Assembly: GCA_900317035.1 (NCBI GenBank) | Contig: ONFC01000004.1 | Coordinates: 1-36,443 of the forward strand | Length of the DNA: 36,443 bases | Reading direction: 5' to 3' | Source: an uncultured Eubacteriales bacterium | GTDB taxonomy: Bacteria > Bacillota > Clostridia > Saccharofermentanales > Saccharofermentanaceae | Part shown: positions 11,906-35,035 of the stretch, piece after piece | Position numbering within the stretch: position 1 is the stretch's first letter | Layout of the letters: each line of letters begins with the position of its first letter | Notes under the pieces: model-generated | Seen by the model: only the letters and a program-made list of their open reading frames with translations | Database searches by the model: none | What the model was told of the DNA's origin: nothing | Translations under genes and position numbers: made by a program

Positions 11906-11995
11906 CAAAAAAGTCACAGAACTACTCATATAAAATATTGCGCCGCACGCGTGTACGATAGTTCAATAAAGACATTACTTTGCGAGGAGGCGGAT

Positions 11996-12826
11996 ATGGA
12001 AAGCTTGTTGAGGGAATTGACGATCAGAAAAAGGCAACTGGACGAAGTAATCTCTTCGACGGAGGAGATCCTTAGACAGGCTCCGGCCGGCAGAGTGCGA
12101 GTCGAGCGGAGAAATGGATCTACCCGATATTTTCAGGTGCTCGAGGCTTATTCGCATGGTAAGTACATCCATAAGGAGAACAGGAATCTGGCAGTAAAAC
12201 TGGCGGAGAAAGATTACTTGTCGCACATTCTTGAATTTGCAAAGAAAGAGAGAGCGCTGCTTGAAAAATATCTCGGGTTTATGAAGACCAGATCTGCGGA
12301 TCACTTGTATCGGACTCTAAGTGAAGGTCGGAAGATGTTGGTGTCGCCGGTGCTTCTCGATGGCGGGACGTATGCCGATATGTGGTTAGCAAAGACGTAT
12401 GCGGGAAATCCGCAGTACCCTGAGAGATTGACTTTTCGGACCAGACGCGGTGAACTGGTACGATCTAAGACGGAAGTGTTTATCGCGAATGTGTATTTTG
12501 AACTGGGGATCCCATACAAATATGAGTGTCCTGTCGTACTTCGCAACGGGAAAACGCGTTACCCGGATTTCACCTTGCTGGATATTGCGCATCACAGAGT
12601 GGTCTATCACGAACATCTCGGTATGCTCGAAGATCCGGATTATCGAAAGGCAGCACTGATCAAACTTCAGGAATACGGAGAAAACGGAATATTCACAGGG
12701 AAGAATCTCATTCTTACGTCGGAGACATCATATGCACCATTTGATCCTGAACGATTCCGGAACAATGTTTGGGATGCTTTTCAGGTGGAATTTCTCAGGA
12801 AGGTCATAAAAGGTGGCGAAAGTTAA
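11996..12826 (+). CDS. PD-(D/E)XK-nuclease-like protein next to hairpin array 1
   Basis: A 276-residue soluble protein. The start at 11996 is set by a strong AGGAGG (11985-11990). The N-terminal 95 residues look coiled-coil or helical (LRELTIRKRQLDEVISSTEEIL...). The C-terminal part carries a pattern like the PD-(D/E)XK nuclease core: SKTE (E160), RYPDF (PD at 190-191), then VVYHEHLG (E206), and a Y-x-K-A-x-I-K-L-x-x-Y-x-x-N-G-I helix. The usual lysine two residues after the glutamate is Leu208, so activity is uncertain or the lysine has migrated. I recall similar W/H-EHLG proteins of unknown function in Clostridia. The last codons (GGES-stop) are formed by the first repeat of the array at 12811. 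Confidence 0.75.
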   Translation: MESLLRELTIRKRQLDEVISSTEEILRQAPAGRVRVERRNGSTRYFQVLEAYSHGKYIHKENRNLAVKLAEKDYLSHILEFAKKERALLEKYLGFMKTRSADHLYRTLSEGRKMLVSPVLLDGGTYADMWLAKTYAGNPQYPERLTFRTRRGELVRSKTEVFIANVYFELGIPYKYECPVVLRNGKTRYPDFTLLDIAHHRVVYHEHLGMLEDPDYRKAALIKLQEYGENGIFTGKNLILTSETSYAPFDPERFRNNVWDAFQVEFLRKVIKGGES

Positions 12827-13110
12827 GATTTGCTTGGATTGACCACCATGATGAAGGGAAGGGGAGGTGGCGAAATCTGATTGATCCGTAATCAGCCACC
12901 TTGAAAAGCACTATCAGTGGTGGCGAGAGAAGATAGGTGATGAGATTCGCCACCTTAAATAACGAAATGGAGGTGGTGAATGTGACGTATTTAACTATTC
13001 ACCACACGAAAAGAATGATCGAAGGTGGCGAAACAAGGGAACCCGCAATCTTAGCCACCAAAATCCTGCTTCCCAAGGTGGCAAAACTTGGCATCGTATA
13101 TTATTCGCCA
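12811..13110. repeat. Hairpin array 1: six alternating-orientation repeats, 53-bp period
   Basis: Six left arms, consensus AGGTGGCGAA, have GGTGG starting at 12812, 12866, 12919, 12972, 13024 and 13077 (steps 54, 53, 53, 52, 53). Each is followed 30-31 bases later by an inverted arm, consensus TCGCCACC, with CCA starting at 12843, 12896, 12950, 13002, 13055 and 13108 (steps 53, 54, 52, 53, 53). Arm pairs within units 3 and 4 are perfect over 8 and 9 bp. Unit 4 shows paired changes (GGTGGTGAAT with ATTCACCAC), so the inverted symmetry is kept when the sequence drifts. Sequence between arms, about 15-20 bases inside and about 17 between units, is not repeated. The array runs from the last codons of the PD-(D/E)XK-like gene to the TetR promoter. 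The 98-codon reading frame across it is not credible. Confidence 0.9.
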
Positions 13111-13131
13111 TTCAAGTTTGTACGGATGGGG

Positions 13132-13137
13132 TATAAT
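13132..13137 (+). promoter_or_regulatory. -10 box of the TetR gene
   Basis: A perfect TATAAT lies 35 bases before the TetR start, with no good -35 box (candidates overlap TTCAAG at 13111-13116). The last inverted arm of array 1 (13104-13110) falls just upstream, so anything bound to the array could affect this promoter. Confidence 0.6.
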
Positions 13138-34708: not shown

Positions 34709-34727
34709 TGCGTCTTGAGCAGAAATA

Positions 34728-35035
34728 ATCCGTAAGGTGAAATGTGAGACTGCAGATATAGTTCCATTTTTTGTAATTTTATCCGTAAGAGTAGAGATGC
34801 TTTTACGGATAAAATTGCGTTTTCTGCGATATTATCCGTATGGGGAGATGTGATTTTGCGGATAAAATTGCATTTCTTGCAAAATTATACGTAAAGACTT
34901 CTTTGAGTTTGCGGATAGAAATGTGTTTTTTGTGATTTTATCCGTAAAAGGGAGTGTGAATATACGGATAAAAATCGCTGTTAGGAAATTTTATGGGTAA
35001 ATGCCGGAAAAGCACTGCTCCGTTATTTCACCCAT
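34728..35035. repeat. Hairpin array 2: alternating-orientation repeats, exact 53-bp period
   Basis: Left arms (consensus ATTTTATCCGTAA) have ATCCGT or a variant starting at 34728, 34781, 34834, 34887 (ATACGT), 34940 and, degenerate, 34993 (ATGGGT): five steps of exactly 53. Inverted arms (consensus TTACGGATAAAAT) have CGGATA or a variant starting at 34753 (CAGATA), 34806, 34859, 34912 and 34965: four steps of exactly 53. The second unit is a perfect 14-bp inverted repeat (34775-34788 with 34803-34816). Sequence between arms is about 14 bases and not repeated. The sixth unit has ATGGGT (34993) and ACCCAT (35030-35035) as a changed pair. The array begins 20 bases after the serpin stop, next to CTTGAGCAGAAAT, the same 13-mer as in hairpin module A. 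Confidence 0.92.

Follow-up and report, generated by a model that had tools for sequence, protein, structure and literature searches.

A predicted nuclease of Clostridia and its helically phased arrays of alternating arms

The window analysed herein is a stretch of 36,443 nucleotides from an uncultured Eubacteriales bacterium of the Saccharofermentanaceae (contig ONFC01000004.1), in which a gene for a nuclease-like protein of 276 residues, at 11996-12826 on the forward strand with an ATG start, runs into an array of short repeats, called arms here, whose orientation alternates along 12812-13112. Our analysis favours, with a probability of about 0.6, the reading that the protein is a sequence-specific nuclease accompanied by arrays of its own cognate sites, to which it would bind. 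The reading is based on the linkage of gene and array among homologues, on the spacing of the array units by whole turns of the DNA helix, and on the conservation of the arms in arrays whose spacers drift.

The nuclease gene and its array

Twelve arms make up the window array, starting at 12812, 12839, 12866, 12892, 12919, 12946, 12972, 12998, 13024, 13051, 13077 and 13104; gaps of 17-18 bp lie on either side of each arm, the unit is 52-54 bp, and the first arm shares bases with the final codons of the nuclease gene. Taken in pairs they read as six dyads, namely GGTGGCGAA / TTGACCACC (12812-12847), GGTGGCGAA / TCAGCCACC (12866-12900), GGTGGCGAG / TTCGCCACC (12919-12954), GGTGGTGAA / TTCACCACA (12972-13006), GGTGGCGAA / TTAGCCACC (13024-13059) and GGTGGCAAA / TTCGCCATT (13077-13112). 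The first-pass annotation of this stretch had described six arms of one kind alternating with six of another; the alternation holds, but the right-hand arms (TTGACCACC to TTCGCCATT) are more degenerate than was stated there. By a purpose-built alternating-arm score, with a cut-off of 30 for calling an array, the array obtains 52 and none of 1500 Markov-simulated windows of like composition reached 30, which confirms the alternating-arm array reported at the end of the nuclease-like gene. The score singles out just one other place in the 36-kb window, an array at 34779-34971, and the single match in an Rfam scan of the window is a tRNA, with none at the array.

The association of gene and array extends to the homologues. 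In the genomes compared, most of which are metagenome assemblies, arrays scoring at least 30 are found beside the gene in 79 of the 118 non-redundant homologues with both full flanks, compared with 6 of 967 distal windows (>1.5 kb from the gene); a replication set of 40 loci, nearly all from another genus and examined after the detector and cut-offs had been fixed, gave 26 of 40 beside the gene and 1 of 186 among distal windows. The earlier proposal that gene and array form a unit is thus borne out and replicated in another genus, and arrays are by no means equally common far from these genes, though gene-less satellite arrays exist. The array adjoins the gene directly, either downstream or upstream, as a rule on one side only; at nearly half of the loci, that of the window among them, it comes after the stop codon. 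Each array has a private arm of 7-12 bases, for example ATAGGATC, TACGACTAA, GCCCGTAA or AGGCTAAA. No conserved partner gene was found beside the nuclease loci beyond ordinary synteny. In the window the array ends at the promoter of a TetR gene, a junction pointed out in the first pass which proves accidental, as in relatives the same TetR gene is preceded by different DNA; a simple insertion of gene and array before the TetR gene was considered and rejected, for the relatives show a rearranged region and no clean empty site.

The AlphaFold2 model of the protein (mean pLDDT 94) runs in the order helix, beta-hairpin (residues 33-48), long helix, linker and PD-(D/E)XK domain, that is, residues 1-99 form an N-terminal helical hairpin tipped by the beta-hairpin, and the linker joins it to the nuclease domain (about 146-265). 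Fold matches of the latter have moderate Z scores (I-Bth0305I 8.7, TnsA 8.5, Bax1 7.8, Vsr 7.3); E160, D191 and E206 are near-invariant across homologues, residue 223 is K or R, and the active-site lysine (K223) is placed in the next helix. Judging from the model, the protein is a predicted PD-(D/E)XK nuclease with its acidic triad retained, and the nuclease-like character first assigned to it is upheld by the fold and the conserved active site. The protein has no match to a Pfam or NCBIfam family, and profile searches of it and its homologues gave no match to a transposase family; residues 140-258 align with the final 120 positions of the PADLOC candidate PDC-S68 model (E about 1e-28), and the same nuclease domain is also present in AAA-ATPase proteins on plasmids. 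The N-terminal domain, predicted and searched alone, returned generic helical hairpins only and is uninformative in this respect. It aligns to the TasH coiled coil with a Z score of 9.1 over 67 residues, no better than to Rad50 or LidA. It was not seen fused to other effectors, and is nearly always found in open reading frames of the same size class. Altogether the nuclease family appears not to have been described previously, and current annotation apparently misses the system.

The host genome of the window carries eight copies of the nuclease, mostly 32-42% identical to the window copy. All 23 genomes of the genus have copies, from one to ten per genome, and at least one is present in 101 of the 115 genomes of the family; the carriers are many rumen and gut Clostridia, with several copies each. 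Among viral and plasmid sequences, one full-length relative (28% identity) is located on an unannotated faecal contig, where no array was found, and the remaining matches cover the nuclease domain alone. Two host copies, L007 and L008, belong to a second, shorter subfamily, which has arrays as well and is 22-24% identical to the window protein; in L008 the catalytic Asp is replaced by Y at position 191, yet the array is kept. In the sister genome, a 97% identical orthologue of the window gene (L015, about 6181) has an in-frame TAG near codon 61, with the array intact.

Spacing of the units and change of the arms

The unit lengths of 82 distinct arrays fall into clusters of 51-55, 62-64 and 73-75 bp, or about 53, 63 and 74 bp, equal to 5, 6 and 7 helical turns. 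In fact 79 of the 82 arrays lie no more than 2 bp from a multiple of 10.5, where 44% would be expected; the 29 arrays that are not in the five-turn class all fit such a multiple too, and irregular units inside arrays are mostly 9-12 bp off. The arms of orthologous arrays are 94-99% conserved; their spacers have decayed as far as the flanks have (54-55% in L018/L019 and L002/L028), yet show no more than one gap, and therefore the spacer length is held and the spacer sequence is free. The spacers accumulate point mutations where they stand, as fast as the DNA beside the arrays does, and show no exchange; a memory made of repeats and unique spacers is accordingly not supported, and spacers acting as guides are rejected. 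In viral contigs searched for dyads of three arms, single dyads only were seen, compatible with chance, and no arrays.

Selection on a paired or palindromic form had been proposed as well, from compensated changes in both arms of unit 4. These changes are present in the window, but the sister genome has GGTGGCGAA opposite TTCACCAC in this dyad, and over all arrays paired changes stand at chance: those within dyads number 19 vs 20.0 and 13 vs 14.4 for shuffled pairings. Moreover, G-T pairs (75, vs 110 A-C) give no G-U excess on the gene strand, and the spacing follows the B-DNA helix, all of which speaks against the proposed selection; the absence of compensatory changes and of a G-U excess also argues strongly against an RNA hairpin array. 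In our reading of these comparisons, the arms are independent double-stranded half-sites in a phased DNA site array, and not an RNA hairpin or guide array.

Proteins more than about 80% identical have the same arm, and those below 70% mostly have different ones. Where two nuclease domains are at least 80% identical, the arm is shared if the N-terminal domains agree to at least 72% and differs if they fall below about 68%; for example, L036 and L002 have nuclease domains 89% identical, N-terminal domains 51% identical and unrelated arms. The contrast is strongest in residues 31-60, which comprise the beta-hairpin and the strand after it. These pairs, drawn from few clades, suggest that arm identity follows the N-terminal domain in close relatives. 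When the arm changes, all arms of an array change while the spacers stay unique, from which we infer that arms were changed singly under selection and not by array replacement. Beside the same HAD-like gene in different species, the nuclease (L003, L020, L021 and L022) is found with four different arms, and at this locus its specificity, as far as the arms indicate it, is changing in place.

Gene-less arrays and further signals

The arm ATAGGATC, which belongs to nuclease L002, forms arrays at six places of the host genome, five of them without the gene, and four of these five satellites lie between convergent genes. Across the genus, exact ATAGGATC dyads number 23, 32, 24 and 3 in the four genomes whose nuclease has that arm (the three of the fourth are probably all at the gene), one in a fifth genome and zero in the other 18, where the three satellite-bearing genomes are close relatives and descent is a partial confounder. 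The G003 orthologue has the arm TGGGATC, and satellites of TGGGATC are present in G003; confinement of dispersed palindromes to genomes with the cognate enzyme thus holds for the ATAGGATC family and for TGGGATC in G003, but not for the window arm GGTGGCGAA, which has no satellite arrays. At orthologous places in three species, satellite arms are 96.4% conserved vs 81.8% for the spacers and 78.5% for the flanks, and in one genome a satellite has been duplicated, the homology of the two copies stopping at the array edges. Outside arrays, the genome has practically no pair of inverted arms at a fixed spacing, and the arrays would therefore be the only strong chromosomal sites of the enzyme. A composite satellite was also observed (L238, 2017-2583 of G003:C42), in which five TGGGATC dyads are directly followed by six TAGTACCA dyads, both in 53-54-bp units.

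The second array of the window (34779-34971) is itself gene-less and sits after a serpin-like gene, with four dyads TTATCCGTAA -N- TTACGGATAA at a period of 53 and a decayed half unit at 34726; G003 and G018 are without exactly three of its 53-bp units (159 bp), which is read as loss. Upstream of the nuclease gene, at 11921-11969 on the forward strand, a promoter-like element ACTACTCATATAAAATATTGC ... GTTCAATAA is recognised by sequence comparison only. Its motif and spacing recur, as CTCATATAAAATATTGC -N- GTTCAATAA, upstream of L001, L003, L004, L016-L019 and other paralogues with a downstream array, which suggests a co-regulation of these otherwise diverged paralogues.

Apart from the arrays, the decamer GAAAAGCACT occurs in the window at 120, 3378, 4330, 5423, 5885, 12903, 23167, 26358, 27668, 29566, 29638 and 35007, that is 12 times where dinucleotide shuffles predict 0.05; a 92-kb part of the genome contains 42 copies, where 0.5 are expected. 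It is apparently mostly intergenic, often with CG after it, and looks like a genome-wide signal, perhaps a Chi-like, segregation or uptake signal.

Interpretation and comparison with known systems

If the protein reads the arrays as supposed, a dimer would contact the two arms of one dyad through the beta-hairpin that tips the N-terminal helical hairpin; neighbouring dyads being 5, 6 or 7 turns apart, their dimers would share one face of the helix and stack into an ordered nucleoprotein assembly. Arrays grow and shrink by whole units and can give rise to gene-less satellites at other places. More speculatively, and as the likeliest role, though one that we hold doubtful ourselves, the phased array might store and restrain the nuclease, which would become free or active only if the assembly is disturbed or the array is lost; the pair would then be a defence-like or addiction-like module carrying a private DNA sponge. 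It is possible, though again a guess we would not lean on, that a new class of bacterial module is seen here, in which a diversifying nuclease has DNA as its partner, namely helically phased dyads that would hold or restrain the enzyme, with matching satellites under selection at other chromosomal places, the reading head and all its sites changing together. The helical phase argues for an assembly, and the conservation of the satellites argues against mere mobility.

Several results weigh against a nuclease with its own cognate arrays. About a third of the homologues have no array found by the detector, some of these showing degenerate arms by eye; the all-pairs Mantel test fails to separate the N-terminal domain from the nuclease domain (partial rho 0.057 and 0.065), which leaves the tie between arm and N-terminal domain to the few clades mentioned; the array at 34779-34971 is without a cognate nuclease in the assembly; and a simple sponge does not readily account for the conservation of arms in satellites unlinked to the gene.

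As for the biology, the main alternative is a selfish pair like REPIN/RAYT, in which the nuclease mobilises or maintains palindromic arrays that spread as non-autonomous copies with no host role. It is compatible with the sponge, the two not being mutually exclusive, and it accounts for gene-less satellites confined to genomes with the cognate nuclease, for the copying of an array to another locus, with junctions at its ends, for the four of five satellites between convergent genes and for the many paralogues with private arms. We nevertheless regard it as rather unlikely, because the satellites are orthologous in three species with arms under purifying selection instead of high turnover, the window arm has no satellites, and mobility needs no helical phasing. 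That the array is a cooperative operator of its own gene would fit the many loci where it lies directly upstream of the start codon, and phased dyads are suited to cooperative repression; such autoregulation is however improbable with the array after the stop codon in nearly half of the loci, the own arm not enriched on the promoter side of nuclease genes, and satellites far away.

Less probable still are the remaining two explanations. Tn7-like elements have inverted-repeat arrays at their ends (PMC8649781) and the nuclease domain resembles TnsA (Z 8.5), so the arrays could be transposase-binding sites at the ends of a TnsA-like element; but a typical gene has its array on just one side, copies of the array move independently of the gene, and there is no conserved partner gene, hence no TnsB or TnsC. 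Least credible of all is an RNA system, in which the array would be transcribed into hairpins serving as guides of TIGR or CRISPR type or as the RNA antitoxin of a type III toxin-antitoxin pair. On paper, repeats of 8-12 bases that alternate with variable spacers between them, next to a nuclease gene, are like TIGR arrays (PMC12045711), but compensatory changes and a G-U excess on the gene strand are absent, the spacers drift neutrally and measure 13-36 nt instead of 9, the unit lengths are quantised by the DNA helix, and the Pfam Nop domain has no match among 79 homologues.

A literature search, which was not exhaustive, found no description of these arrays and no matching system. Provided that the sequence-specific nuclease with its own site arrays is real, most genomes of at least one bacterial family contain a chromosomal protein-DNA system with one to ten independent specificities per genome, and the paralogue set amounts to a natural experiment on how DNA recognition evolves. 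Since as many as 16 target half-sites appear to change along with one short beta-hairpin, the recognition code could be read from sequence, while the helical spacing leads to direct predictions on how the nuclease assembles on DNA.

Among the known systems, REPIN/RAYT is alike in having one enzyme gene flanked by inverted repeats and dispersed copies only where the enzyme gene is present, but its enzyme is a dedicated HUH (Y1) transposase present in single copy, whereas here we have a PD-(D/E)XK domain, helix-phased tandem arrays and a private arm for each paralogue. TIGR-Tas shares alternating repeats of 8-12 bases and variable spacers up- or downstream of a nuclease-like gene, with locus-specific repeats; it differs in its edge and loop repeats, 9-nt spacers and 36-nt RNA, compared with the inverse-complement arms, gaps of mostly 13-36 bp and units of 53, 63 and 74 bp found here, and the present nuclease family is without HNH or RuvC, without sign of RNA pairing and with drifting spacers. 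CRISPR-Cas loci combine cas genes with direct repeats of 25-36 nt and spacers that are exchanged, in contrast to alternating arms of 7-12 bp, drifting spacers and no conserved partner gene. Tn7-like transposon ends (TnsA/TnsB) resemble the arrays as inverted arrays of protein-binding sites served by a TnsA-like nuclease fold, but they come at both ends with partners, while here one array per gene is usual, with neither a partner transposase nor element boundaries. Type III toxin-antitoxin systems have tandem RNA repeats acting as antitoxin; the present arrays show no covariation, no G-U excess and no Rfam match, and lie on either side of the gene. PDC-S68 and the related AAA-ATPase or helicase proteins have a similar C-terminal nuclease domain, though those proteins are about 1200 residues long and have the nuclease domain alone in common with the window family. 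Finally, phased cooperative operators and centromere-like arrays, such as iterons, parC and toxin-antitoxin operators, offer repeated sites on one helix face to a self-encoded protein; what sets the present arrays apart is that their protein is a predicted active nuclease, and that the sites lie downstream or unlinked as often as upstream.
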